Assembly: GCF_003236305.1 (NCBI RefSeq)
Contig: NZ_POTX01000004.1
Location: 1 to 64,000, forward strand
DNA from: Micromonospora endophytica
GTDB taxonomy: Bacteria > Actinomycetota > Actinomycetes > Mycobacteriales > Micromonosporaceae
DNA: 64,000 nt
Direction of reading: 5' to 3'
This document shows, piece by piece, positions 8,571-44,328 of this stretch. The notes under the pieces are model-generated. The model was given only the letters and a program-made list of their open reading frames with translations, ran no database searches and was not told where the DNA came from. The first letter of the stretch is position 1. The number at the start of each line of letters is the position of its first letter. The position numbers and the translations under genes are program-made.

Positions 8571-9146
8571 ATGCGGAGGAGTCGGGCGCTGTTGATGTGT
8601 GCCGTGGCGCTTGTCGCGCTCTCGGCCTGCGGGGCGGGCGAGGAGACGAAGACGGAGCAGAGTGCCCCGCAGGTGGCCACCTTGGCCACTCCCGAGCCGA
8701 AACGCACCGGCTCGGCGCAGCCGACGGAACAACGGCCGCGCGAGCGGCTCGACACCACGCAAGAGGAGTTTCTGGCAATGCTCGGGCCGTACCACAAGTG
8801 CATGCAGGAGCAGGGGTTCGGCCCCAAACCGGAGCAGGGCCCCATCGGCAAGCCACGGCCGGGCAACGCGAAGGAGGCGGAGAAGTACGAGGCGGCGAAC
8901 CGGATCTGCGAGCCGCAGTTCTATCCGCTGCCGCCGTGGGAGAAGGACCCGGCCAACCCGGAGGCCCGGGACTTCGCCCTCGACGTGGTGAAGTGCCTCA
9001 AGGAGAAAGGCGTCAAGTACGTCGAGGTGAGCGAGGACGGCATCAGCATCGCCTTCGGCGGCGACCAGAACGACTCCCGCTCGATCAGCATGGGCCTGGA
9101 CCTCGCGCCCGAGTGCGAGCGCAAGGTGGCTGCCGCGTCGAAGTGA
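8571..9146 (+). CDS. Lipoprotein with two CMxExG/Cys repeats (module 1)
   Basis: 191-aa predicted lipoprotein. Signal peptide MRRSRALLMCAVALVALSAC with lipidated C20, then a Thr/Glu/Pro-rich spacer. The mature part has four cysteines: KCMQEQG (C77), ICEPQ (C113), KCLKEKG (C142) and ECERK (C182). The C77-C113 and C142-C182 gaps are 36 and 40 residues, almost the same as in the lipoprotein at 41802-42335 (37 and 41), which also sits beside a MacB-type exporter. ATG at 8571 is set by the GAGGGAAGG ribosome-binding site and the signal peptide; the frame is open further upstream. Function unknown; probably an extracytoplasmic partner of the adjacent exporter. Confidence 0.8.
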   Translation: MRRSRALLMCAVALVALSACGAGEETKTEQSAPQVATLATPEPKRTGSAQPTEQRPRERLDTTQEEFLAMLGPYHKCMQEQGFGPKPEQGPIGKPRPGNAKEAEKYEAANRICEPQFYPLPPWEKDPANPEARDFALDVVKCLKEKGVKYVEVSEDGISIAFGGDQNDSRSISMGLDLAPECERKVAAASK

Positions 9147-9160
9147 CGCAGGGCGAACAG

Positions 9161-9197
9161 CGAGTGCGGCGGCCGGAGAACCCGGCCGCCGCACTCG
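9161..9197. terminator. Strong bidirectional hairpin terminator
   Basis: Perfect 16-bp stem CGAGTGCGGCGGCCGG (9161-9176) / CCGGCCGCCGCACTCG (9182-9197), 5-base loop, followed by TTT. It separates the lipoprotein from the convergent permease gene. Confidence 0.9.
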
Positions 9198-9233
9198 TTT
9201 CGTACCGGCCTCCGCCAGCCGGAGGCGGGGACC

Positions 9234-10445
9234 TCAGCCGGCGGCGAGGGCCTGCGTCGGGGGCAGCCGCGCCGCGCGTACGCACGGATAGACACCGGCG
9301 AGCACGCCGATCACGACGGCCCCACCCACCCCGAGGACCGCCGACTCGGCGGGTATCACCAACGGCCAGCCCTGCCAGGTCGCGTACCCGATGGTGGCGA
9401 GCAGGCCCAGCGCCGTGCCGACCAGCCCACCGAGCACCGCCAGCACCACCGACTCGGTCAGGAACTGGCTGCGGATCTGCCCACGGGTGGCGCCGAGTGC
9501 CCGCCGCAGGCCGATCTCGGCACGCCGCTCCAGCACCGAGACGACCATGGTGTTGGCCACCCCGATGCCACCGACCAGCAGGGCCACCCCGGCCAGGGCC
9601 AGGAAGAGGACGGCGAAGCTGCCCTCGGTGGCCCGCTTGGCGGCCAACGCGTCCGAGGGGCGGCTCACCACCACCTGACCGGGCCGTTCCGGGAAGATCG
9701 TCTCCGCCAGCACCCCTCGGACCGTCTCCAGCTGCGACTCCTCACACCGCAGGTAGATCACCGTCGGGTGGCCGTCGAAGCGCAGCTCGCTGCGGGCCGC
9801 CGCCCAGCCGACCAGCACCGACCTGTCGATGTCCGGCGACAGTGGAGTCTGCGCCAGGATGCCGACCACGGTGAACCGGCGATCGGAGATCATCACCTGG
9901 GGTGCGGGCTGGCCGGTGGGCAGGTCGGTGATGCCGAGCCGGGTGGCGGCGACGGAACCGAGCACCACCGTGGGAAAGTTCGCCGTGGCCGGGTTCAGCC
10001 AACTGCCGACGCGGACCCGTGCGTTGATGGTGGGCAGCAGGTCCAGCTGGCTGGCCAGCACGGTGAGGCCGGAACCGTCCGTGGGGGCGACGCGGTCGTT
10101 TCGGCGTACCACGGTGTGGGTGTTGGCGACCGCGCTGACCGCCGTGACCGGACCGATGCGCCGGACCATCCCCACCGCCGATTCCGGCAGCTTGGTGGGG
10201 GGATCGCGGTCCACCGCCATCGCCTGAAGGCTGTTCGTGCCGAGCGCGGTCAACTCGGTCAGCAGCGCGGCCTGGCTGGACGCCGGGATACCGGTCACCA
10301 CGATCATGGTGGCGATGCCGATCGCGATGCCCAGCGCCGACAACACCGCCCGCAGCGGGCGGGTCCGCAGGCCGGTCAGCCCGAGCGCGAGCAGATCCGG
10401 TACGGCCAACCGGACCGGCCGCGCCCGATCGAACTGCCCGCTCAC
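9234..10445 (-). CDS. MacB/FtsX-type ABC transporter permease (module 1)
   Basis: 403-aa inner-membrane subunit. One helix near residues 25-50 ([29 protein letters not shown]), a long extracytoplasmic MacB-PCD-like domain, then three C-terminal helices of the FtsX domain ([45 protein letters not shown]). Such permeases do not channel substrate across the membrane themselves but couple ATP hydrolysis to movement of envelope substrates. Its start overlaps the ATPase stop by 4 bases, and the order membrane-fusion protein, ATPase, permease indicates one operon. It is the counterpart of the permease at 38803-40023. Confidence 0.9.
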
Positions 10446-11149
10446 CGGTCCGCCACCACGGTGTGGGCCGCTGGCGCGTCGTCGCTGATCAGCCGCCCGT
10501 CGCGGATCTCGATCCGGCGGGGCAGTGCCGCGGCGATGTCCCGGTCGTGGGTGATCAGCACGATGGTGGTGCCCTCCTCGTTGAGCCGGCGCAGCAGGCG
10601 CAGCACGGACTGCCCGGTGGCGGTGTCCAGCGCGCCTGTGGGTTCGTCGGCCAGCACCAGCGAGGGCCGGTTGGCCAGGGCGCGGGCGATCGCGACCCGC
10701 TGTTTCTCGCCACCGGAGAGCTGCTGTGGGCGGTGCTCGGTGCGGTGCGCCAGGCCGACCCGGGCCAGGGCGCGCATGGCGTGTTCCCGCCGCTGCCGGC
10801 GCGGCACCCCGGCGTAGAGCAGGCCGGTGCTGACGTTGTCGACAGCGCTCAACCCGTCGGCGAGGTGGAACTGCTGGAACACGAAACCGATCTCTTGAGC
10901 CCGCAGCGCCGACAACTGCCGGTCGCCGAGCGTCGCGACGTCCTGACCCGCGATGTGGACGCTGCCCGAGGTGGGGCGGTCCAACGTACCGATGATGTTG
11001 AGCAGGGTCGACTTGCCCGATCCGGACGGCCCGACGATGGCCACCAGCTCTCCGGCGGCGACGTCCAGGCTCACCCTGGCCAGCGCGGTCACCCCGCCCG
11101 GATAGACCATCGACGCGTCGCGTACCGAGAGCACCTGTCGCCCGGTCAC
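10442..11149 (-). CDS. ABC transporter ATPase, MacB/LolD type (module 1)
   Basis: 235-aa cytoplasmic ATPase that powers the adjacent FtsX-type permease. Walker [10 protein letters not shown] at residues 40-48, Q-loop in FVFQQFHL, signature [15 protein letters not shown], Walker [13 protein letters not shown] and the switch histidine in LITHD. The [10 protein letters not shown] signature and short length place it in the MacB/LolD/FtsE group. It overlaps both neighbours by 4 bases. Confidence 0.95.
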
Positions 11150-12369
11150 GCGGGCACCACCAGCGCGACGCCCTCGGTCAGCCCCTCGCCGGTGATCTCG
11201 ACCCAGCCGTCGGCGAACATGCCGGTGCTTACCGCGACCAGTCCGTTGGCGGTCTGCACCGCGTAGCCGCCCTCGCGCAACGCCACCAGCGCCTCGACCG
11301 GCGCGACCAGCACGTCAGTGGCGGTACGTCCGGTGAACTGCACCTGCACCTCACCGGAGTCGAGGTTGGCGATGGCCTTCGGCTTGTCCACGGCCACCGT
11401 CACGGTCAGCATTTGTGGGCTGCTGGTGACGCCGTTCTCGGTCGCGACCAGATCACGACCGACGGTGACGACACGGGCGGGGACCGTACGCTCGTCGGGC
11501 AGTTCCACGGTGACCCGGTCGCCCCGCTTGATCGTGGCGGCGTCGGCGAGTTCGGCACCTACTGTGATCACTTTGCGGACCGCAGTCACCGTCAGCAGGG
11601 GCTCGTTGGCCGAGCCACCAGGTGCGCCGGTGATCGAGTCCACCCGGACCGCCCCGCTGGCGATCTCGACGTGTCCCACCGGGATGGTGCCGGTCGCCGG
11701 CACGCCGAGATCGGTCTGCCAGCGTTTGATCGCCGTGATCAGGCTCGCGGTTAGCACGCCCTCGCCGCTGCGTACCCGCTGGGGTTTCGGGTCGGCGGCC
11801 TCGGCGTCGCCGTCGGTGGCTTCCGCAGCCGGCGGCGTGACCCACTCGCCGGGCGACGGTTGCGGGCCGATGGCGTAGCCGAGCGTACGCAGGTTGTCCG
11901 CGACGATCCGCACGTCCCGGCCGACCAGGTTCGGTCCGGCGATTTCCCGGTACATCGGCATGCTGCCGTAGAAGAGCACCACCGGCCGGTCGTCGGCCCG
12001 GAACAGTTGCCCACCCCGCTTGATGGTCTCGCCGGCCTGCGGCAACCAGGTCACCGTCGCGTCCAGGTGCCCGGCCAACGGACGGGCCGTGCCGAACCCG
12101 ATGGTGCCGGCGAGCTTCCTGGTGGTGGAGAGGTCGCGACGCTCGATAGTCGCGGTCGCTACGGGGTCCGTCGCACCCGTTGCCGGTTCGGCGGCGGCCC
12201 GGTGCCGGGTCACCGCGATCCCGGAGCCGACCAACGCCAGGCTCCCCAACACCAGGCCCGCGACGAGCCACCGGAGCGCACCACGCCGCCGTGCCGGCCG
12301 GTCGGGCACGCGAGGGATGATCTCGGTCGAGTCGTCAAGCTTCGGATACATGCCGACGAGACTGGCCAC
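11146..12369 (-). CDS. Membrane-fusion/peptidoglycan-binding periplasmic adaptor (module 1)
   Basis: 407 aa. A cytoplasmic leader, one helix at about residues 32-52 ([22 protein letters not shown]), then HlyD/RND-MFP-like barrel strands ([49 protein letters not shown]). Inserted is a peptidoglycan-binding-like helical segment ([10 protein letters not shown]...[21 protein letters not shown], given in parts). The C-terminal barrel ends EGVALVVPA. It should link the permease to the cell wall side. GTG at 12369 is used; ATG at 12351 (MYPKLDD) is possible, and neither has a strong ribosome-binding site. First gene of the exporter operon, divergent from the response regulator. Confidence 0.82.
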
Positions 12370-12429
12370 GGTTCGTTAGGAACCTGTCAGATATCGCGGC
12401 CGGACCCGGGGTGGTGGGGAATCCAGACC

Positions 12430-12435
12430 TATCAT
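12430..12435 (+). promoter_or_regulatory. -10-like hexamer, probable leaderless promoter
   Basis: TATCAT followed by 7 bases and the ATG at 12443. This spacing would start the mRNA at or next to the start codon. No clear -35 is visible and no ribosome-binding site precedes the gene. Confidence 0.45.
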
Positions 12436-12442
12436 CGCCGCC

Positions 12443-13150
12443 ATGTGTGCGCAGGTTCTGGTCGCCGACGACGATCCCCGCCAGGCCGAGGTGGTACGCC
12501 GCTACCTGATCGCCGAGGGCCACGGCGCGGTGGTGGTGCACGACGGCCGGGCGGCGCTGGAGACAGCCCGGCGGATCCGGCCCGACCTGCTGGTGCTGGA
12601 CGTGATGATGCCGGTGCTCGACGGCCTGGCGGTGTGCCAGGCGCTGCGTCGGGAGTCGGACGTGCTGGTGCTGATGCTCACCGCCCGGGCCAGCGAGGAC
12701 GATCTGCTGACCGGCCTGGAACTCGGCGCCGACGACTACCTGACCAAGCCGTACAGTCCCCGGGAGCTGATGGCCCGGGTCCGTACCCTGCTGCGGCGGG
12801 TGGGTCGCGGCACGTCGGTGCCGGTCGGTGCCGGGTTGCGGCGGATCGGGCCGATCGAGATCGACACGGCCGCGCATCAGGTGACAGTGGACGGTGCCCG
12901 GGTCGAGTGCACCCGTGGCGAGTTCGCCATCCTGGCGGCCATGGCCGAGCAGCCCAACCGGGTCTTCACCCGGGCCCAGCTGCTGCACCACACCCGGGGC
13001 ATCGACCGCAGCTCGACCGAACGGACCATCGACGTGCACGTGATGAACCTGCGCCGCAAGATCGAACCCGATCCCCAGCGACCCACCCGGTTGGTCACCG
13101 TCTTCGGCGTCGGCTACAAGCTCGCCACCGTCGCGGCGACGCCCCGGTGA
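12443..13150 (+). CDS. OmpR-family response regulator (module 1)
   Basis: 235 aa. Receiver domain with acidic pocket D9-D11, phosphoacceptor D53 (VLDVMMP), T80 and K102 (TKPYSPREL). The C-terminal winged helix (about 135-230) shows ECTRGEFAILAAMAEQPNRVFTRAQLL in parts and ends GVGYKLA. Translationally coupled to the kinase by a GTGA overlap and divergent from the MacB-type exporter operon, which it most likely controls. Confidence 0.93.
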   Translation: MCAQVLVADDDPRQAEVVRRYLIAEGHGAVVVHDGRAALETARRIRPDLLVLDVMMPVLDGLAVCQALRRESDVLVLMLTARASEDDLLTGLELGADDYLTKPYSPRELMARVRTLLRRVGRGTSVPVGAGLRRIGPIEIDTAAHQVTVDGARVECTRGEFAILAAMAEQPNRVFTRAQLLHHTRGIDRSSTERTIDVHVMNLRRKIEPDPQRPTRLVTVFGVGYKLATVAATPR

Positions 13151-14946
13151 GCGGCCGGCGGGTACCGATCCGGCACAGCCTGGTGACCCGGCTGCTCGTC
13201 ACCTCGGTGCTGATCGCGGTCGCCGCCATCGCGGCCACCGCGTGGCTGGCCACCCGGACCGCGACCCGGGCGATCAGCCAGGAGCAGGGTCGCTCACTGG
13301 CCGAGAACAGAAGCGTGTACGACATGCTCGTCGGCTACGCCGCCGCCCACCCCGACTGGTCCGGGGTGCGGCCGCTGATCGAGGAACGCGCCGCCGAACT
13401 GGACCGCCGGATCACCCTGATGACCGAGGACCGGGCAGTCATCGCCGACACCCACTCGGGCCCGTCGTTGCATACCGCCCGGCCGGCGGCAGTGGTGGAT
13501 CCGTTGAATCTGGATCTCGGTCTCACCGGCGGAACGGACCGCATCGACCGCCGGGCGGTCGGCCCGTTCCGGGTGTCGGCGGCCGAGAGCGCCAAGCTGC
13601 GCGAACTGGCCGAAAAGCAGTTGTCCTGCATCCGATCCGGAGCCGACGGGGAGATCAAGGAGCAACCCGACGGTCGATTCGAGATCATCGTGACCACACC
13701 GGACCCGAACAACCTGGCCTCGCGATGCAGCTCGGATCTGGCGTTCGAGTCGCCGAGAACCGGATCCGAGCCGAAGGCACTGCGGTCGCTGAGCCGGTTG
13801 GCGGGCCGCTGCCTCAACCTCGACGAGAAGACCCAGCGCCTGGAGGTCCTGCCGGACTTCACCGCGTACCCGGTCGCGCTACCGCCGAAGGGACGGGACG
13901 AGCGAGTGGTTCCGCAGGATGCCCTTGGCGCTCGGGTGGACGCGGCGGGCGCGGCTCGGATCAACAGCTGCGTGGAGAAGTCGCGGCGGACGTTGCTGCA
14001 ACCGTACGTGGCCCCGGCCGTGCTGCTGTTCATCACCGCCCCGGACACCGGCGCCGACCAGACCACGTTCACCCTCTCCGGCGCGAACACCATCCGCATC
14101 GTCACGGTGACCGGCGCGGTGCTGGTCGCCACCATCATCGTCACGGTGCTCGTCGGTCGCCGGCTGGTCCGCCCGTTGCAGACGCTCACCGACGCCGTCG
14201 ACCGGCAACGCCCCGCGCCGGTCTCCGCCCCGGACGAGATCGGCAGGCTGGCCCGCGCCCTCAACGACTCGACCCAGCGCCGCGACCGGGCCGAGGCGCA
14301 GCGACGGGCCATGGTCAACGACGTGGCGCACGAACTGCGTACCCCGCTGACGAACATCCGCAGCTGGCTGGAGGCGGCCCAGGACGATCTCACCCCGACC
14401 GACAACCAGCTGCTCGAACTGCTGCACGAGGAGGCGGTGCTGCTGCAACACATCATCGACGACCTGTCCGACCTGGCCGCCGCGGACGCGGGCACGCTGC
14501 GCATCCATCCCGAGCCGACGTACGTGCGCGACGTGCTCACCCAGGTCGTCGACAGCCACCGGGGCACGGCACACGCGGCCGGCGTCGACCTGACCATGCA
14601 GGTCCACGACGATCCGGTGCTGTCGGCCGACGCGGTGCGGCTCCGGCAGATCGTCGGCAACCTGGTCTCCAACGGGATCCGCTACACCCCGTCCGGCGGG
14701 TCGGTCACCGTCACCGCGCACAACAACATCATCACCGTACGGGACACCGGTGTCGGAATCGCGGCCGAGAACCTGTCGAAGATCTTCGACAGGTTCTGGC
14801 GGGCGGACGAGTCACGCAACCGGGCGACCGGCGGCAGCGGCCTGGGCCTGGCGATCGCCCAGCAACTGGTCACCGCGCACGGCGGCACCCTGACCGTGCA
14901 GAGCACCCCCGGCCAGGGCAGCCTGTTCACCATCCAGTTGGGCTAG
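13147..14946 (+). CDS. Sensor histidine kinase with four-cysteine extracytoplasmic domain (module 1)
   Basis: 599 aa from GTG at 13147, inside the response regulator stop (GTGA). Helix 1 at about 15-35, an unusually long extracytoplasmic sensor of about 280 residues with cysteines at 161, 194, 222 and 275, helix 2 at about 316-337, HAMP, then H395 in DVAHELRTPLTNIRS. N box VGNLVSNGIRYTP, G1 RDTGVGI, and G2 GGSGLGLAIAQ are intact, so it should be active. The sensor matches nothing I recognise; its even number of cysteines suggests disulphides or a redox cue, which is inference. The frame is open far upstream, but coupling to the regulator decides the start. Confidence 0.92.
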   Translation: MSGRRVPIRHSLVTRLLVTSVLIAVAAIAATAWLATRTATRAISQEQGRSLAENRSVYDMLVGYAAAHPDWSGVRPLIEERAAELDRRITLMTEDRAVIADTHSGPSLHTARPAAVVDPLNLDLGLTGGTDRIDRRAVGPFRVSAAESAKLRELAEKQLSCIRSGADGEIKEQPDGRFEIIVTTPDPNNLASRCSSDLAFESPRTGSEPKALRSLSRLAGRCLNLDEKTQRLEVLPDFTAYPVALPPKGRDERVVPQDALGARVDAAGAARINSCVEKSRRTLLQPYVAPAVLLFITAPDTGADQTTFTLSGANTIRIVTVTGAVLVATIIVTVLVGRRLVRPLQTLTDAVDRQRPAPVSAPDEIGRLARALNDSTQRRDRAEAQRRAMVNDVAHELRTPLTNIRSWLEAAQDDLTPTDNQLLELLHEEAVLLQHIIDDLSDLAAADAGTLRIHPEPTYVRDVLTQVVDSHRGTAHAAGVDLTMQVHDDPVLSADAVRLRQIVGNLVSNGIRYTPSGGSVTVTAHNNIITVRDTGVGIAAENLSKIFDRFWRADESRNRATGGSGLGLAIAQQLVTAHGGTLTVQSTPGQGSLFTIQLG

Positions 14947-14957
14947 CCTGCCTGGTC

Positions 14958-15734
14958 ATGGAGGCATCCGACGACCGGCTCGAACTGGCCGTCGACCCGG
15001 CCCGGCCCACCGGGCGTACGCTCCTCGCCGGCGGCGTCGAGCAGTCCTACGTCGACCTCGCCGATCCCACGTACCTGCACTTCGAGTACGTCCGCCGGAT
15101 GGCCGCCGTGGCCGATCTCGCCGCGCCGGCCGGTGCTCCCCTGGACGTGCTGCACCTCGGCGGCGGCGCGCTGACCCTGCCGCGTTACGTCGCCGCGACC
15201 CGTCCCGGCTCGGTGCAGGTGGTCGTCGAGCGGAACCCGGCAGTGGTCGACCTGGTGGCGCGCGACCTGCCGGCCACGCCGGCCGGCGTCGAGGTCCGGG
15301 TCGCCGACGCGCGGGAGGCAGTCGTCACGGCCCCTGCCAGCGGGTACGACCTGGTGCTCGCCGACATCTACCGGGCGGCCCGGATGCCGCCGCACGTGAC
15401 CACCGTGACGTTCGCCGCCGAGGTGGCCCGGGTGCTGCGACCGGACGGCATCTACCTGGTCAACGTGACCGACCTGCCACCCCTGGTGCTGACCCGGGTG
15501 CAGGCGGCCACTCTGCGGGCGGTCTTCGCCGACGTGTGCGTGGTCGCCGACCGGCGGATGCTGCGCGGCCGGCGGTACGGCAACATGGTGCTCGCCGCGA
15601 CGCCGCGACCGCACCGGCTGCCGGTGGCGCGCCTGGCGGCGCGGGCGCGGCGCGACCCGGTGCCCGGCGGTGTGCTGCACGGGCCGGCGCTCGACACGTT
15701 CATCGCCGGTGCCCGGCCCCGCACCGAGCCTTGA
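14958..15734 (+). CDS. Spermidine-synthase-like SAM-fold protein
   Basis: 258-aa Rossmann-fold protein. LDVLHLGGGALTLPRY is the cofactor-binding loop, VVVERNPAVVDLV the acidic strand 2, and YDLVLADIYRA the active-site strand. Genuine spermidine synthases keep GGGxG followed by Glu/Asp residues and DSTDP; those are changed here, so aminopropyl transfer is doubtful and a methyltransferase-like role is as likely. It starts 11 bases after the kinase stop and may be cotranscribed, although TAGCCT lies 8 bases before its ATG and could give a separate leaderless mRNA. Nothing shows a link to the exporter beyond position. Confidence 0.7.
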   Translation: MEASDDRLELAVDPARPTGRTLLAGGVEQSYVDLADPTYLHFEYVRRMAAVADLAAPAGAPLDVLHLGGGALTLPRYVAATRPGSVQVVVERNPAVVDLVARDLPATPAGVEVRVADAREAVVTAPASGYDLVLADIYRAARMPPHVTTVTFAAEVARVLRPDGIYLVNVTDLPPLVLTRVQAATLRAVFADVCVVADRRMLRGRRYGNMVLAATPRPHRLPVARLAARARRDPVPGGVLHGPALDTFIAGARPRTEP

Positions 15735-15744
15735 GCCGGATTCT

Positions 15745-15774
15745 CACCGTCACCGTCACCGTCACCGTCACCGT
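15745..15774. repeat. Five tandem CACCGT hexanucleotides
   Basis: Five perfect copies of CACCGT followed by two variants (CAGCGT, CCCCGT) fill the short gap between two convergent genes. This is a microsatellite that could vary by slippage; it is outside any coding frame I accept. Confidence 0.85.
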
Positions 15775-15785
15775 CAGCGTCCCCG

Positions 15786-16316
15786 TCAGCGGAGGGCGTC
15801 GGGCTGTTCGGCATCCTGAAGTGGGGCCGCGTAGACGGTCATCCAGTGCGGCTGCAGCCGGTAGTAGACCACCTCGTTGTCCCAGTCGAAGGCGTCAGCG
15901 CCGTAGAAGCCCTGGAAGTAGGCGAGCAGGTCCGGCCAGTCGGCGGCCGGTTCGCCGCCGCTGGGGTTGAGGATCTCGACGGTGCCGTGAGTGAACACAC
16001 CGAGGTCCTCGCCCCGCATGTGGGCGACGCTGGCGGCCGGGCGGGCGGCGAGGTGGCGGGCCTTGGCGGCACCGGGTGCGGTGCCGAAATGCCACCTGCC
16101 GTGCAGGAAGTGCCCGTCCGCGCCGCTGATCCGTGGCTCGCCCTTCGCCGTCACGGTGGACAGGGCGAGGGTGCACATGCCGGTCAGCACCTGGGTGAGC
16201 TGCACCGCGGTCAGAGTGCGTTCCCCGACGATCGAGCGAAGGTGGGCGGTGGAGCGGGACAGGGAGGAGTCGAGCAGAGCCTGAAGCTCGGCGAGTTCCT
16301 CGGGCGTTTCGCGCAA
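15786..16316 (-). CDS. Pyridoxamine 5'-phosphate oxidase-like flavin protein
   Basis: 176-aa protein of the PPOX/split-barrel flavin superfamily: CTLALSTVTAKGEPRISGAD, FGTAPGAAKARHLAARPAASVAH (given in parts) and a C-terminal YRLQPHWMTVYAA. Such proteins bind FMN, F420 or haem and reduce or sense small molecules; true PdxH residues are not evident, so vitamin B6 synthesis is unlikely. It runs opposite to the GH62 gene, with a 445-base regulatory gap between them. Confidence 0.75.
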   Translation of the reverse strand: MRETPEELAELQALLDSSLSRSTAHLRSIVGERTLTAVQLTQVLTGMCTLALSTVTAKGEPRISGADGHFLHGRWHFGTAPGAAKARHLAARPAASVAHMRGEDLGVFTHGTVEILNPSGGEPAADWPDLLAYFQGFYGADAFDWDNEVVYYRLQPHWMTVYAAPLQDAEQPDALR

Positions 16317-38802: not shown

Positions 38803-40023
38803 TCACACCGTGGCGAGTGCCTCAGTGGGTGCCAGCCGAGAGGCGCGGATCGCCGGATAGAGGCCGGCGAAACCACCGATCACCAGGGTCGCGGCGACAC
38901 CGCCGAGGGTCGCCCAGGCCGGCACCACCGTCGGCCAGCCCTGGGACAGCGCGTACCCGCCGGTGACCAGGATGCCGAGCAGCACCCCGCCGATCCCGCC
39001 GAGCGCCGACAGCAGCAGCGACTCGGCGAGGAACTGGGTGCGGATCTGCCCCCGGGTGGCGCCGAGCGAGCGGCGCAGACCGATCTCGGCGCGCCGCTCC
39101 AGGACCGAGATGACCATCGTGTTGGCCACCCCGACCCCACCGACGAGCAGCGCCACCGCACCGAGGCCGAGCAGCAGCGCGGTGAACGTCTCGTCGGTGG
39201 CCTGGGCGGCGGCCAGGGCGTCCGACGGGCGGGAGACGTCCACCTCGTTCGGTGCCTCCGGGTTGGCCGTCGCGCCGAGCACCGCGCGGACCGCCTCGAC
39301 CTGGTCGGCTTCACTGCGGGTGTAGACGGTGGTCGGGTGGCCGTCGAAGCCCAGGTGGCTGGCGGCGACCTCCCAACCGATCAGCGCCGAGCTGTCCAGC
39401 TCCGGCGCGAGCGGCGCCGGGGCGAGGACGCCCACCACGGTGAACCAGCGGCCACCGAGCCACACCTGCACGTCCGGGCCGGCGGTCGGCAGCCCGAGCC
39501 GCTCGGCAGCGGTCGCGCCGAGCACCACGGCCGGGTACCGGGCGGTGGCCGGGTTCAGCCAGGTGCCGCTCACCACCTCGACCCCGACCGTATCCAGCAG
39601 GCCGAGCTGTGCCGCCCGGACGGCGATGCCGCCGCTCTCCGCCGCCGGGACGCGGTCGGTCCGGTAGACGTTGCCGTCGACCTGGCCGGTGGCGGTCGCG
39701 TGGGTCACCGGCCCGATCCGGCTGATCATCGCGACCGCCTCGGACGGCAGTTGCGCGTCGCCGTTGAAGAGGGTCCGGCCCGGCGACACGGTGAGCAGGT
39801 TGGTGCCGAGCGCGGCGAGGGTGCGGTCCAGTTCGGCCCGCGACGACGAGGAGATCCCGACCACGGAGACCATCGCGGCGATGCCGATGGCGATGCCCAG
39901 TGCGGAGAGGAACGCCCGCAGCGGCCGGGTCCGCAACCCCACCCCGCCGACGCGGACCACGTCGGCCGCGGGCATCCGGGCCGGGACGAGCCGGGGGGAC
40001 CGGTCCGGGGAGAGCACCGCCAT
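38803..40023 (-). CDS. MacB/FtsX-type ABC transporter permease (module 2)
   Basis: 406 aa, closely similar to the permease at 9234-10445: [21 protein letters not shown] at the first helix and LLLGLGAVALLVGGVGVANTMV, then [22 protein letters not shown] in the FtsX domain. The central extracytoplasmic MacB-like domain is likewise conserved (WLNPATARYPAVVLG here, [15 protein letters not shown] in module 1). One base separates the ATPase stop from its ATG (TGAGATG). Confidence 0.9.
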   Translation of the reverse strand: MAVLSPDRSPRLVPARMPAADVVRVGGVGLRTRPLRAFLSALGIAIGIAAMVSVVGISSSSRAELDRTLAALGTNLLTVSPGRTLFNGDAQLPSEAVAMISRIGPVTHATATGQVDGNVYRTDRVPAAESGGIAVRAAQLGLLDTVGVEVVSGTWLNPATARYPAVVLGATAAERLGLPTAGPDVQVWLGGRWFTVVGVLAPAPLAPELDSSALIGWEVAASHLGFDGHPTTVYTRSEADQVEAVRAVLGATANPEAPNEVDVSRPSDALAAAQATDETFTALLLGLGAVALLVGGVGVANTMVISVLERRAEIGLRRSLGATRGQIRTQFLAESLLLSALGGIGGVLLGILVTGGYALSQGWPTVVPAWATLGGVAATLVIGGFAGLYPAIRASRLAPTEALATV

Positions 40024-40024
40024 C

Positions 40025-40720
40025 TCAGCTCACCCCGCTCGACACCGGCCGGGAGTCGGCGCGCAGCCGCCCGTCGCGCATCTGCACCTGGCGGGGCAGG
40101 CCGGCGGCGATCTCCCGATCGTGCGTGATCACCACGACGGTGGTCCCGGCCCGGTTGAGGTCGTGCAGCAGGTCGAGCACGGCCGTACCGGAGCTGGTGT
40201 CGAGGTTTCCGGTCGGCTCGTCGGCCAGCAGCACGGCCGGCTCGCCGACCACCGCGCGGGCCACCGCGACCCGCTGCCGCTCACCGCCGGAGAGTTCGTG
40301 CGGCCGGTGCCCGAGCCGGTGCCCGAGACCGACGCGGTGCAGCGCGGCCTCCGCGCGCCGCCGCCGCTCCCGTCGGGGTACGCCGGAGTAGAGCAGCCCG
40401 TCCGCCACGTTGTCCAGCACCGGTACGCCGGGTGCCAGGTGGAACTGCTGGAACACGAAACCGATCCGGCTGGCCCGCAGCGCGGAGAGTTGCCGGTCGG
40501 TCAGCCGCGCCACGTCGTGCCCGTCGATCAGGACGGTGCCCGAGCTGGGCCGGTCCAGCGTGCCGATCAGGTTCAGCATCGTCGACTTGCCGGAGCCGGA
40601 CGGCCCGACGATCGCCACCAGCTCACCGGAGGCGATGCGCAGCGACACGTCGGCGAGGGCGACCACCCCGCCGGCGTACCGCTTGCCGACCTGGTCGAGC
40701 ACGATCACGTCCGCGGTCAC
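40025..40720 (-). CDS. ABC transporter ATPase, MacB/LolD type (module 2)
   Basis: 231 aa. Walker [10 protein letters not shown] at 39-47, [35 protein letters not shown] and VITHD. The second motif set is nearly word for word that of the module 1 ATPase. Overlaps the adaptor gene by 4 bases. Confidence 0.95.
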
Positions 40721-41805
40721 CGGGGCATCCCGACGGTCGTACCCTCGGTGATGCCGTCGCCGGTGACCTCGACCCGGCCGTTGGCGAACAGCCCGGTGGT
40801 GACCGCGACGATCCGGCGGGAACCGCCCTCGACGATCTCCAGCCCGTAGCCACCCTCGGCCAGGGCCAGCAGCGCGGCGACCGGGACGGTCAGCACGTCG
40901 GGGCGTTCGCTGACGGTGAAGGTCAGCTCGGCCGAGGCCCGGTCGAAGTCGGCCAGGGCCTTCTGGTCCTCGACGCTGACCACCACCTCGATCTTCGTCT
41001 CGGTGCCGGAGTCCCCGGACGTACCCGCCGACGTGCTCTTGACGACCGTCTCGACGGTGCTGATCTTCCCCTCGACCCGCTTGTTGTCGGGCAGCGTGAT
41101 CTCGACCGACTCACCCCGCTTGGCCAGCCGCTGATCGTCGACGTCGAGTTCGGTGGTGACCAACCGATCGGTGCCGGTGTACGTGAGCACGGCCTGGCCG
41201 GGCTGCACGGCCGCCCCGACGTCGAGCTGATGCCCCTCGACCCGGACCGCGGAGTCGGCGTACACGATCTGGCCCAGCTCGACCCGGCCGGTCTCGGCCA
41301 CCCCGAGGTCGTCCTGCCAGGCCTGGACCGCGTCGGCGGTGGCCCAGGTGTACTCGTCGTCCACGGTGAAGCCGGTGTAGCCGAGCGCCTTCAGGTTCCG
41401 CTCCAACTGCGCGACGTCCGCACCCTCGACGCCGGGCTGGAGAGTCCGGTACGCGGGCACCTTTCCGTAGAGCAGCACCACCGGATCACCGTCGACGGTG
41501 TAGAGCGCCTTCCCGCGCCGGACCGTGGCGCCGGCGTCGGGCAGCGCGGTGATCGTGCCGGACAGCCGGCTGGCGGCGGTCCGGCTGGGGCCGTACCCGA
41601 GTTCCCCGTCGACGGTCTCCGCGTCGGCGAGCGTCTGCTTGGTGACGGTGGCGCTGGCGGACGACACCTTGTCGGCCTCGGCCGCGTCATCCTCCGCGCC
41701 ACCGCCGAAGCCGATCGCGGCGGCCACGCCGGCGACGGCGACGAGCAGCAGCGCCACGCCGCCGGCGACGGCTCCCAGACGGGTACGGCGGTGGGGCGGG
41801 GTCAC
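40717..41805 (-). CDS. Membrane-fusion/peptidoglycan-binding periplasmic adaptor (module 2)
   Basis: 362 aa from GTG 41805, which overlaps the lipoprotein stop (GTGA). One helix at about residues 11-31, then MFP strands ([20 protein letters not shown]), [19 protein letters not shown], a peptidoglycan-binding-like segment ([29 protein letters not shown]) and the C-terminal barrel ending EGTTVGMPR. It has the same order as the module 1 adaptor and should play the same role. A spacer [14 protein letters not shown] interrupts the second barrel strand pair. Confidence 0.85.
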
Positions 41806-42335
41806 CGGCCGCCCCCGAACTGCGGCGCGTACTGCCGGCACTTCTCCATCGCCGCCTGGAACGTCGGGTCATCCATGTCGAACCGGAAGGCGTCCCGATC
41901 GATCTGGATCCGGCCGTCCGCCGCCGGGTCCGGGAAGTCGGCTACGCCGTTCTCCCGCATGCACTTGGCCATCGCCCGCATCTGTTCGAGCTGCTGCGCG
42001 TCGAGCTGCGGCGGCTGGCCGCCGTTGGGCATCAACTCGCGACACTTCTCCATCGCCGCTTGGAGCTTGCTGCGGTCCACGTCACCGTTGAACTGGAACC
42101 TCGACCCGCCGTCACCCCCCGGATCAGGCATGTCCACACCGTTCTCCCGCATGCAGCGGGCGAATTCGAGCCGCTGTTCCTCTTCGCTGCCGCCGGTGCT
42201 GCCGCTCGCCGAGGCGGAGGCTGCGGCCCCGCCCCCACCGGCTGTCGCCACCTGAGTCCCGCTGTCGTCCTGGCCGGCGCACCCGGCCAGCGCGAACGCC
42301 AGCAGCACGGGGAGCAAGAGTGTTCTCCGTCGCAT
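41802..42335 (-). CDS. Lipoprotein with two CMRENG/Cys repeats (module 2)
   Basis: 177 aa. Signal peptide with lipobox LAGC (lipidated C19), Ser/Ala/Gly-rich spacer, then two repeats: RCMRENGVDMPDP ending in AAMEKCRELMP (C61, C98), and KCMRENGVADFPDP ending in AAMEKCRQYAP (C125, C166). Cysteine gaps of 37 and 41 residues mirror those of the module 1 lipoprotein. ATG 42335 is set by GGGAAGGGACACCG upstream and the signal peptide. First gene of the exporter operon and translationally coupled to the adaptor. Function unknown; an extracytoplasmic accessory is likely. Confidence 0.85.
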   Translation of the reverse strand: MRRRTLLLPVLLAFALAGCAGQDDSGTQVATAGGGGAAASASASGSTGGSEEEQRLEFARCMRENGVDMPDPGGDGGSRFQFNGDVDRSKLQAAMEKCRELMPNGGQPPQLDAQQLEQMRAMAKCMRENGVADFPDPAADGRIQIDRDAFRFDMDDPTFQAAMEKCRQYAPQFGGGR

Positions 42336-42461
42336 CGTCGGTGTCCCTTCCCAGCGTCCGGCGACCTTCGCCGAACGGTTCGCCCGGCGGCTGTGCGCCG
42401 GGACGCGTGCCCGGCGCATCCGCCGGACACCCGGACAGTTCAGCCGAGACCGCGTATCGCG

Positions 42462-42495
42462 GGCGTAACCGAATCCGTTTACGGCGGCGTTACCG
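42462..42495 (+). promoter_or_regulatory. Direct repeat upstream of response regulator (module 2)
   Basis: GGCGTAACCG (42462-42471) and GGCGTTACCG (42486-42495) are a 9-of-10 direct repeat, 24 bases start to start, in the divergent promoter region. OmpR-type regulators bind direct repeats, so this is a candidate site for the adjacent regulator. CGGCGG/CCGCCG around the second copy is also a short inverted repeat. Confidence 0.45.
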
Positions 42496-42505
42496 CCGGT
42501 CGCGG

Positions 42506-42511
42506 CACTAT
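42506..42511 (+). promoter_or_regulatory. -10-like hexamer, probable leaderless promoter
   Basis: CACTAT lies 6 bases before the GTG at 42518. No ribosome-binding site precedes the gene. Confidence 0.35.
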
Positions 42512-42517
42512 TGGCCG

Positions 42518-43174
42518 GTGCGAGTGCTGGTGGTGGAGGACGAGGACGTGTTGGCGGACGCCATCGCGGAGTGGCTGCGCCGGGAGGCGTTCGCGGTCGA
42601 CGTGGCGTACGACGGTGACGCCGCCCTGGAACGGCTGGGCGTCAACACGTACGAGGTGGTGGTTCTCGACCGGGACCTGCCGGTGGTGCACGGCGACGAG
42701 GTGTGCCGGGCGATCGTCGACGCGGGTGGCGAGACCCGGGTGCTGATGCTCACCGCGGCGGCGGCGGTCCGCGACCGGGTGGCCGGTCTCGCGCTGGGCG
42801 CCGACGACTACCTGGTGAAGCCGTTCGCGCTGGTGGAACTGGCTGCCCGGGTGCACGCGCTGACCCGGCGGGCCGGCCCGGTGGCGCCACCGACGCTGCG
42901 CCGGGCCGGGATCGTGGTCCAACCGGCCCGGCGTGAGGTCCACCGCGACGGCCGGCTCGTGCCGTTGACCCGTAAGGAGTTCGCGGTGCTCGTCGAGTTG
43001 CTGCGCGCGGACGGCGCGGTGGTCTCCGCCGAGGACCTGCTGGAGCGGGCCTGGGACGAGCACATCGACCCGTTCACCAACGTCGTCCGGGTCACCATGA
43101 TGAAGCTGCGCCGCAAACTCGGTGACCCGCAGGTGGTGGAGACCGTGCCGGGAGTGGGGTACCGGATCCGATGA
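42518..43174 (+). CDS. OmpR-family response regulator (module 2)
   Basis: 218 aa from GTG 42518. Receiver with acidic residues at 7-10, phosphoacceptor D51 (VVLDRDLP), T79 and K101 (VKPFALVEL). Winged-helix domain with PLTRKEFAVLVELLRADGAV and ending PGVGYRIR. The open frame continues upstream, but the receiver begins exactly at VRVLVVEDED. Coupled to the kinase by an ATGA overlap and divergent from the exporter operon. Confidence 0.93.
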   Translation: MRVLVVEDEDVLADAIAEWLRREAFAVDVAYDGDAALERLGVNTYEVVVLDRDLPVVHGDEVCRAIVDAGGETRVLMLTAAAAVRDRVAGLALGADDYLVKPFALVELAARVHALTRRAGPVAPPTLRRAGIVVQPARREVHRDGRLVPLTRKEFAVLVELLRADGAVVSAEDLLERAWDEHIDPFTNVVRVTMMKLRRKLGDPQVVETVPGVGYRIR

Positions 43175-44328
43175 AACGGCTCAGCCTTCGCGGCCGGCTC
43201 ACCCTGGTCTACGGCGGTCTCTTCCTGCTCGCCGGCATCGTCCTGCTCGGCGTCACGTACGTGCTGGTGGACCAGCGGACGCCACAGCCGTTCCGGACCG
43301 AGTTCCTGGACCGGGGCACGCTACCCACCCGCACGTACCCCAGCGAGCAGGACTTCGAGCGGTTCCGGGCGCTGATCCAGGACGTGCAGAGCGAGGCGAA
43401 GCGGGACGCGCTGGAGTCTCTGCTCACCCAGGGCGGCATCGCGCTTGTGGTGGTTTCGGCGGCGGCCGTCGCGATCGGTTGGTTGATCGCCGGCCGGGCG
43501 CTGCAACCCCTGCACCAGATCACCGGAACGGCCCGCCGGATCGCCAGCGCCGACTCCGCCGGGCGCGGACTGCACGAGCGGATCGCGTTGACCGGCCCCC
43601 GCGACGAGGTACGCGAACTCGCCGACACCTTCGACCAGATGCTGGAGCGGCTGGACCGTTCCTTCGACGGGCAACGGCGCTTCGTGGCGAACGCGTCGCA
43701 CGAGCTGCGGACCCCGCTGACCATCAACCGGGCGCTTGTGGAGTTGGCGGTGAGCCGGCCGGACGCCCCGGCCGAGCTGCGCCGCCTCGGCGAGGCGCTG
43801 CTGTCGGTGAACGAGCGGCACGAGCGGCTCATCGACGGCCTGCTCACGCTCGCCGACTCGGAGAACGAGCTGACCGAACGCGCCGAGGTGGACCTGGCCG
43901 AGATCGCCGCGTACGTGATCGACCAGGCCGGGGCGGCGTCACCCGGCATCGCGGTGCGCCGATCGCTGGATCCGGCCCCGACGCAGGGCGACCCGGTGCT
44001 GCTGGAACGGTTGACGTTCAACCTGGTGGAGAACGCGTTACGGCACAACGTGCCGGCCGACGGCTGGGTGGAGGTGCGGACCGCGATGGCGGCCGGACGC
44101 CCGACGCTCGTGGTGGTCAACACCGGCCCGGTGGTGCCGGGCTACGACATCGAGACGATGTTCCAGCCGTTCCGGCGGTTGAGCCGGGAGCGACTGGCCG
44201 GGGCCCGCGGCTTCGGGCTGGGCCTGTCGATCGTACGGGCGGTGGCGCGGGCCCACGGCGGCACCGCCGAGGCCGCCCCGCGCCCCGGCGGCGGCCTGAC
44301 CGTCACCGTCACCCTGCCGCCAGCCTGA
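43171..44328 (+). CDS. Sensor histidine kinase (module 2)
   Basis: 385 aa. Helices at about 12-33 and 88-107 enclose a short 55-residue sensor loop without cysteine, in contrast to module 1. HAMP, then H177 in NASHELRTPLTINRALVEL. N box NLVENALRHN, G1-like VVNTGPV and G2 FGLGLSIVRAVA. The G1 Asn in place of Asp is usual in this subfamily. The small sensor suggests it reads the membrane or an accessory protein rather than binding a large ligand. Confidence 0.92.
   Translation: MKRLSLRGRLTLVYGGLFLLAGIVLLGVTYVLVDQRTPQPFRTEFLDRGTLPTRTYPSEQDFERFRALIQDVQSEAKRDALESLLTQGGIALVVVSAAAVAIGWLIAGRALQPLHQITGTARRIASADSAGRGLHERIALTGPRDEVRELADTFDQMLERLDRSFDGQRRFVANASHELRTPLTINRALVELAVSRPDAPAELRRLGEALLSVNERHERLIDGLLTLADSENELTERAEVDLAEIAAYVIDQAGAASPGIAVRRSLDPAPTQGDPVLLERLTFNLVENALRHNVPADGWVEVRTAMAAGRPTLVVVNTGPVVPGYDIETMFQPFRRLSRERLAGARGFGLGLSIVRAVARAHGGTAEAAPRPGGGLTVTVTLPPA

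Follow-up and report, generated by a model that had tools for sequence, protein, structure and literature searches.

A 64,000-nucleotide stretch of the Micromonospora endophytica genome (contig NZ_POTX01000004.1, positions 1 to 64,000; hereafter the window) encodes two MacB-type exporters, and near each lies the gene for a small lipoprotein with four cysteines in addition to the lipidated one. These lipoproteins, Lip1 and Lip2, belong to a family that is a core member of an actinobacterial MacAB-like export module, as seen from homology, near-constant linkage in both directions, conserved gene order, and near-invariant cysteines. On these grounds we consider it somewhat probable that the lipoprotein is the core extracytoplasmic, ligand-binding subunit of an exporter that has its own two-component system.

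The lip1 gene (8571-9146, + strand) encodes a 191-amino-acid lipoprotein with two C[ML]xExG units and is convergent with exporter 1, while lip2 (41802-42335, - strand) encodes a lipoprotein of 177 amino acids and is the first gene of operon 2. As read from their translations, both have one signal peptide with a lipobox and a polar remainder and are not multi-pass proteins; both carry their four further cysteines in two C[ML]xxxG units. The cysteines of Lip1 are at residues 20 (lipobox), 77, 113, 142, and 182, with an extra C10 inside the signal peptide, and those of Lip2, numbered from the ATG at 42335, are at residues 19 (lipobox), 61, 98, 125, and 166. The mature spacings are thus 36/29/40 and 37/27/41, and the CMxExG cysteines lie 65 (C77-C142) and 64 (C61-C125) residues apart. 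A preliminary description of this DNA had given the same within-unit spacings (36/40 and 37/41) and the same distances of 65 and 64. It had also called the rest of the two sequences barely alike, which understates their relationship: the likeness spans most of their length and includes a VAT motif after the lipid cysteine. By sequence comparison, Lip1 and Lip2 are homologous. A single BLASTP comparison gives an E value of 2e-4, and hhalign of the Lip1-family alignment against the class-wide lipoprotein alignment gives a probability of 98.6% (P = 5e-16). A profile built from the lip2-type sequences of the genus and from class-level loci, all lip1 loci being left out, recovers Lip1 from 5,356 sequences at 43 bits (E = 1.2e-11). 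Neither lipoprotein reaches the cut-off of any Pfam or NCBIfam family, and a sequence search of the PDB returned nothing above cut-off; all 16 members of set A1, compared with NCBIfam, gave two weak families (E of about 0.007 to 0.009) and nothing else. A match of the lipoproteins to the CHCH family was rejected (E = 0.033; 14.8 bits against a cut-off of 27.2).

Relatives of lip2 are present in 36 of 61 genomes of the genus. Thirty genus loci were returned (fetched loci carry L numbers); the regulator and kinase genes adjoin lip in all of them and the adaptor gene in 29, the locus with no visible adaptor (L016) being cut by a contig end. Class-wide, lip matches occur in 107 of 394 genomes and in 42 of 137 genera, and we took as the class-level set the 100 best among the matches listed for other genera, together with flanks of up to 6 kb. 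Adaptor, ATPase, and MacB/FtsX permease genes lie within 6 kb of lip in 96 of these 100 loci; three of the four exceptions are cut by contig ends, and the fourth (L136) has an adaptor only. Adaptor, permease, regulator, and kinase are found together in 88 loci, and 8 have an adaptor and permease without a full regulator/kinase pair within 6 kb. The gene order is nearly always lip-adaptor-ATPase-permease, with lip nearly always first, and the two-component genes are variably placed (divergent, upstream, or downstream). As background, 20 lip-bearing genomes hold 140 MacB_PCD matches in about 136 Mb (the sum of rounded genome sizes), so about 1.3 of 100 loci would be expected to lie near one by chance. 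The enrichment check thus sets 96 of 100 profile matches near a MacB/FtsX exporter against about 1 expected.

The linkage also holds in the reverse direction. Searching 60 class genomes with an adaptor profile (A4) yielded 19 matches at E<1e-90, two of them the adaptors of the window; all 17 close adaptors outside the window's own genome have a lip match within 150 bp. A4 was built wholly from lip-linked loci, and one of the 17 (G076:C67, which is L131) is itself an A4 row; this test therefore covers close adaptors rather than every adaptor. Distant adaptors in the same search (17 rows, E of 7e-38 to 4e-14) showed no lip match. At three of these places (L288 to L290), the corresponding position is occupied by a large and distant lip-like gene, with weak E values of 2e-3 to 1e-6, and we therefore withdrew a count of distant adaptors as lacking a lipoprotein. 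L286 and L287 resemble L288 to L290. Such large lipoprotein-like genes (about 300 amino acids or more), with a related CMxxxG...C unit, lie beside the same kinds of exporter and kinase at L148 (9435-10361, + strand), L162 (2450-3451, - strand), and L286 to L290.

Several results weigh against the lipoprotein as a core exporter subunit, and the first are those in which the linkage loosens. In the tail of profile matches, down to an E value of about 1e-8, an adaptor and permease are present in 28 of 40 further loci. Four (L243, L245, L249, and L256) have a permease and ATPase without an adaptor, one (L239) has an adaptor only, and seven have neither adaptor nor permease, four of these seven carrying a regulator and kinase (L233, L241 at a contig end, L248, and L253). 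This tail left out G114 (two rows), whose lip lies 60 bp from an adaptor; one of its loci, G076:C40, came from the reverse-test search, and where several rows, tandem or repeated, fell at one place, that place was fetched a single time. At L243, L245, L249, and L256, the lipoproteins have proline/serine/arginine-rich repeats between their first two cysteines and adjoin a kinase and a MacB-type permease/ATPase, with no adaptor found.

The lip1 subfamily is looser still. At E<=1e-3 its profile finds matches, many of them weak, in 74 of 200 family genomes. Among 34 distinct strong loci, 17 carry exporter and two-component genes, 4 two-component genes only, and 13 neither, three of the last lying near a contig end (L175/L039, L201, and L204). 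These counts take an exporter as adaptor plus permease, and a two-component pair as regulator plus kinase, within the fetched stretch; merging L041 with L176 and L039 with L175 reduced 36 loci to 34 (18/4/14 to 17/4/13). Eight weaker lip1 matches were also fetched, six with both gene sets, one with two-component genes only, and one with neither. Because lip1-type copies occur without an exporter, the four-cysteine domain is not purely an exporter part. The preliminary description had proposed an unnamed, cysteine-paired lipoprotein that travels with this exporter type, and this stands for the lip2 type (96 of 100 loci; 17 of 17 adaptors), with a looser association for the lip1 type (17 of 34). 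At L042 (8001-8516, + strand, and 15688-16260, - strand), L177, and L180, two lip1 copies flank one exporter or stand in tandem.

Loci with a regulator and kinase and no exporter in the stretch (L040, L197, L199, L206, L211, L233, L248, L253, and L272) speak for an alternative in which the lipoprotein mainly assists the histidine kinase in sensing, binding a ligand or envelope damage and modulating the kinase, with the exporter as its regulon. Kinase ectodomains with a similar four-cysteine segment and the same domain beside an extracytoplasmic function (ECF)-type sigma gene (L251), both described below, point the same way, and one report describes CseA and AfsQ3 as lipoproteins encoded with two-component systems of Streptomyces coelicolor (PMC9739842). 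Other evidence favors the exporter. The lipoprotein is kept with it at the eight class loci that have no full two-component system, and its place beside the adaptor is nearly fixed, whereas that of the kinase varies. The ectodomains of the class-locus kinases are mostly short, and 81 of 89 have no cysteine (one of the 89 has no measured ectodomain). Finally, distance matrices of 125 full modules form two blocks, exporter plus lipoprotein and regulator plus kinase. The partial rank correlation of the lipoprotein is 0.24 with the adaptor, 0.25 with the permease, 0.18 with the regulator, 0.01 with the kinase, and -0.18 with the ATPase; that of regulator and kinase is 0.75. Four of 129 loci, in which lip was too far from the adaptor, were dropped from this comparison, and each locus was represented by its best-scoring ATPase, in some cases perhaps not that of the module. 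The statistic includes shared species history, which lessens the support it lends. Co-variation and the nearly fixed place beside the adaptor together favor an exporter subunit, and the kinase-only loci argue otherwise. An exporter subunit that also serves sensing is, in our judgment, the fairly likely arrangement, and we prefer it over a purely sensory role, which we regard as unlikely.

The lipoprotein might instead be cargo, that is, a MacB-like machine might carry the lipoprotein encoded in its operon across the cell wall or deposit it there. An outer membrane is absent from most of these hosts, copies of the lip1 type can stand without an exporter, and the likeness to kinase ectodomains would be left unexplained; we rate this explanation as improbable. 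It draws on the usual position of lip as the first gene of the operon and on the handling of lipoproteins in Gram-negative bacteria by LolCDE and Aat, as described in two articles (PMC5985334 and PMC7943197, respectively).

The cysteines are near-invariant in the family. Exactly five mature cysteines (the lipidated one and four more) are present in 93 of the 102 lipoprotein sequences of the class set; two of the others are membrane-anchored second copies with four cysteines, and most of the rest have an extra cysteine upstream of the likely start. Across 201 profile matches, an aligned C1 is found in 196, C2 in 192, C3 in 193, and C4 in 142, and many of those without an aligned C4 are of the lip1 type, in which C4 lies beyond the aligned end. 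In a wider set of 142 sequences, the median spacing is 38 for C1-C2 (quartiles 36 to 39, range 28 to 103), 27 for C2-C3 (quartiles 27 to 29, range 24 to 64), and 38 for C3-C4 (quartiles 36 to 40, range 26 to 48). Because all three vary, spacings alone do not decide which cysteines pair. Second copies in L131 and L144, with C2-C3 spacings of 60 to 64 and unit spacings still of 35 to 39, and a pectinacetylesterase-like protein at L246 that has a single unit with two cysteines favor pairing within units; a C1-C2 and C3-C4 arrangement is thus supported at the level of sequence.

AlphaFold models of Lip2 (single sequence, residues 48-177) and Lip1 (six sequences) each show four helices with one cysteine per helix. 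Two points temper this picture. The mean predicted local distance difference test (pLDDT) scores, 68 for Lip2 and 64 for Lip1, denote modest confidence, and Foldseek (both models) and VIA-align (Lip1 model) found no matching solved fold with these weak models. The top Foldseek rows, a metal-binding domain (E = 2.6) and a mite odorant-binding protein (E = 4.2), were dropped as noise. A check for the substrate-binding domain of ATP-binding cassette (ABC) importers gave no Pfam or NCBIfam match above cut-off and no sequence match among solved structures, and the fold search with the weak models was empty. An EF-hand-like reading of a PDPxxDG stretch was dropped as well, since it fit only 16 of 142 sequences in unit 1 and 35 of 142 in unit 2.

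Of the two roles suggested in the preliminary description, substrate capture is plausible. The other is that of a redox subunit, in which the cysteine pairs would be thiol switches that sense or shuttle the extracytoplasmic thiol state, as proposed for CutS. Four cysteines are indeed conserved across a divergent family, and two ectodomain cysteines control CutS in Streptomyces (PMC12802291). Lip1 and Lip2, however, have no CxxC motif, and the cysteines of the family, mostly 24 to 45 residues apart and, in the models, one per predicted helix, fit structural staples; the same source states that in Streptomyces venezuelae 74% of the proteins carrying a Sec signal contain at least two cysteines. 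The redox suggestion finds no specific support, near-invariant cysteines fitting structural disulfides at least as well, and we consider it improbable.

The preliminary description mentioned neither a two-component system belonging to the module nor the four-cysteine ectodomain of kinase 1. This kinase (13147-14946, + strand; HisKA, HATPase_c, and HAMP domains) has an ectodomain of about 283 amino acids (13249-14097, + strand) with a four-cysteine segment, its cysteine codons lying at 13627, 13726, 13810, and 13969 (spacings 33/28/53). Among 23 family rows of the kinase 1 type, the window included, the spacings are 31 to 35, 25 to 39 (25 to 28 in 22 of 23), and 30 to 56; class-level kinases in the same profile differ, with 47/26/35 in L139 and 29-36/21-22/9-12 in L142, L153, and L171. 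Profile comparison places the first cysteines of the kinase ectodomain in register with those of the lipoproteins. Aligned by hhalign with the lipoproteins, the ectodomain scores 34.1 (P = 1.7e-4; probability 50%, or 29.5% untrimmed), a score reached in none of 100 column shuffles (maximum 18.3) and in none of 100 with the cysteine columns kept (maximum 17.4). Compared with the Lip1 alignment, the ectodomain scores 27.0 (probability 10%, or 23% untrimmed), with shuffle maxima of 18.5 and 24.1. A kinase-ectodomain profile run against 19,436 open reading frames (ORFs) of the fetched loci, 194 of them lipoproteins, gave 51 non-kinase matches at E<=1, and 48 of these were lipoproteins. With the four-cysteine part of the profile at E<=10, lipoproteins make up 100 of 128 non-kinase matches, and in five shuffles with cysteine columns kept they make up 0 of 37, 1 of 28, 11 of 39, 1 of 33, and 0 of 49. 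On the other side, the hhalign probabilities for this kinship are just 10 to 50%, masking the cysteines drops the scores to 20.5 and 14.9, and the lipoprotein profile finds no kinase ORF at E<10, which makes the evidence for the kinship weak and one-way. On this comparison of profiles, the ectodomain of kinase 1 probably carries the same domain as the lipoproteins.

Kinases with an ectodomain of this kind were found in 30 of 197 class genomes (E<=1e-6). Twenty such loci were fetched (L271 to L290): 6 have an exporter together with lip or a lip-like gene, and 12 have only a regulator and kinase. L272 has a lip1-like gene without an exporter, and L273 has a lip1-like gene at the far end of its stretch; a lip match in L279 was judged on reading not to be lip-like and was excluded from the counts. 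Four-cysteine kinase ectodomains are also seen in L040 to L042, L176, L177, L179 to L190, L196 to L199, L206, and L211, besides L271 to L290. At L251 (5149-6480, + strand), an ECF-type sigma gene is followed by the gene for a single-pass membrane protein with a short N-terminal segment, a membrane helix, and then the four-cysteine part; these two are possibly an anti-sigma-like pair. The pectinacetylesterase-like protein at L246 (5011-6402, - strand) has its one two-cysteine unit at the N-terminal side. The L251 protein, taken with the kinase ectodomains and the lipoproteins of the exporters, suggests that the domain serves in recognition.

The substrates of MacB-family pumps are antibiotics, toxins, peptides, and lipoproteins. 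We infer the following scheme for the present module, which would comprise the lipoprotein, the peptidoglycan-binding adaptor, the ATPase, the MacB/FtsX permease, and usually a dedicated two-component system. The lipoprotein would be exported by Sec and tethered through its lipobox cysteine on the outer face of the membrane, its mature part forming a pair of helix-loop-helix units, each probably held together by a single disulfide (C1-C2 in one, C3-C4 in the other). It would bind the ligand of the module at the membrane surface, perhaps an envelope-active peptide, a lipid-like molecule, or another amphiphile. The ligand would then be passed to the adaptor and permease, and an ATP-driven stroke would expel it through the wall; the two-component system would switch on the operon when the ligand is present. 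In modules of the first type, the four-cysteine domain seems to recur in the kinase ectodomain, and sensor and capture protein may therefore share a ligand. A bolder and more tentative idea, which we rate as somewhat less likely than not, is that the two-cysteine helix-loop-helix unit is a new mobile actinobacterial recognition domain, used in exporter lipoproteins, as an insert in kinase ectodomains, in an ECF-sigma-linked membrane protein, and in a secreted esterase-like protein, and forming a capture-sense-export circuit with a ligand common to pump and sensor.

In the window, both exporters lie at the positions given in the preliminary description (9234-12369 and 38803-41805), and permease, ATPase, and adaptor could be located in each. 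Module 1 has permease 1 (9234-10445, - strand; Pfam MacB_PCD PF12704, 3.5e-15, and FtsX PF02687, 6.5e-21), ATPase 1 (10442-11149, - strand; ABC_tran, Pfam 1.3e-36), and adaptor 1 (11146-12369, - strand). Adaptor 1 has no significant Pfam match of its own and is assigned through its 33% identity to adaptor 2; the A4 profile matches it at 9e-117, adaptor 1 being itself a row of that profile. Response regulator 1 (12443-13150, + strand; OmpR type, Pfam) is divergent from exporter 1 and precedes kinase 1. As had been described, lip1 stands at the far end of module 1, convergent with its permease gene. Between the two lies a strong GC-rich hairpin, found by RNA folding (9153-9203), which is probably a shared two-way terminator of both genes. 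Directly after kinase 1 comes a methyltransferase/spermidine-synthase-like gene (about 14955-15734, + strand; weak, Pfam scores below cut-off). It had fallen within the right edge (15734) of the preliminary description, but a tblastn search of 63 related loci gave no match at E<=1e-10, and we therefore rejected it as a member of the module.

Module 2 has permease 2 (38803-40023, - strand; MacB_PCD and FtsX, Pfam), ATPase 2 (40025-40720, - strand; Pfam), and adaptor 2 (40717-41841, - strand), whose peptidoglycan-binding domain (PF01471, 2.2e-9) is joined to HlyD_3 (PF13437, 5.5e-6). Both permeases exceed the Pfam cut-offs for MacB_PCD and FtsX and are MacB-family proteins, and the HlyD_3 match, likewise above cut-off, makes adaptor 2 a membrane fusion protein (MFP)/HlyD adaptor. 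A TolC-type exit duct in an outer membrane would not be expected in such hosts. As the preliminary description had it, lip2 heads the operon and overlaps the adaptor; the overlap covers the GTG start of the adaptor 2 ORF. Response regulator 2 (42518-43174, + strand; Pfam) is divergent from lip2, and kinase 2 (43171-44328, + strand) has a 55-amino-acid ectodomain with no cysteine. In the lip2/response regulator 2 intergenic region (42336-42517), an alignment of 27 genus loci reveals four TAAC-like boxes at 11- to 13-bp intervals (42454-42494, - strand). They are largely conserved among these loci, L037, the most divergent of the nine alignment rows printed, being without some of them. This repeat array is a candidate site for regulator 2.

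A plasmid record of Streptomyces clavuligerus illustrates how such loci are annotated. The lip relative is a "hypothetical protein," and its neighbors are a "peptidoglycan-binding domain-containing protein," an "ABC transporter ATP-binding protein," an "ABC transporter permease," a "response regulator transcription factor," and a "HAMP domain-containing sensor histidine kinase." The locus tag of the lipoprotein is I3J09_RS31575, and those of adaptor, ATPase, and permease are RS28730, RS28725, and RS28720. A search of the open-licence PMC literature, by subject and by motif string, found no description of the lip family, nor of an actinobacterial MacB module with a lipoprotein as an almost constant member; motif strings occurred in two papers, of which the one listed is a stroke-registry review. 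MacB pumps with adaptors and lipoproteins of two-component systems are known; the lipoprotein as a near-constant part of the MacB module appears to be new, and the two-cysteine unit is possibly a new recognition domain. In MacB pumps of bacteria without an outer membrane, the lipoprotein fills an evident gap, being close to obligatory in the actinobacterial form, and it bears on substrate loading and on the role of the adaptor in such pumps. One short gene, four cysteines, and a dedicated kinase offer a handle for finding the substrate in an antibiotic-rich group. If the kinase does carry the same domain, the specificities of pump and sensor could be tested with one ligand.

Among known systems, bacteriocin immunity of the NisI-NisFEG type likewise combines a lipoprotein at the cell surface with an ABC exporter, both directed at a membrane-active peptide; its transporter is of a class other than MacB-type. 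We know of no four-cysteine units in NisI-type lipoproteins. Further parallels are the Gram-positive MacAB-type exporters YknXYZ with YknW, AS-48FGH with AS-48E, and Spr0693-0695 of Streptococcus pneumoniae, in which an HlyD/MacA-like adaptor, an ATPase, and a MacB-type permease are encoded together (PMC5985334, PMC4887032, PMC5768738). YknW and AS-48E are unexplained extra proteins, showing that such pumps can have an additional accessory protein, and a review leaves room for further partners (PMC5985334). They are multi-pass membrane proteins, however, whereas the present one is a secreted lipoprotein with four cysteines; in addition, the module 2 adaptor has a peptidoglycan-binding domain and most loci have a two-component system. 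Graspetide clusters contain an uncharacterized lipoprotein that is described by conserved histidine and arginine (PMC8939145). CseA and AfsQ3 of Streptomyces resemble the present family, by description, in that a lipoprotein and a sensor kinase share a locus and the lipoprotein is proposed to act on or through the kinase; they differ in that the available part of the source mentions no MacB exporter with them (PMC9739842). CutS/CssS shows that conserved ectodomain cysteines are found in actinobacterial kinases, and the word lipoprotein does not occur in the main text of that paper (PMC12802291). By the same source CutS has two such cysteines, whereas kinase 1 and its close relatives have four, at a lipoprotein-like spacing, and kinase 2 has none.

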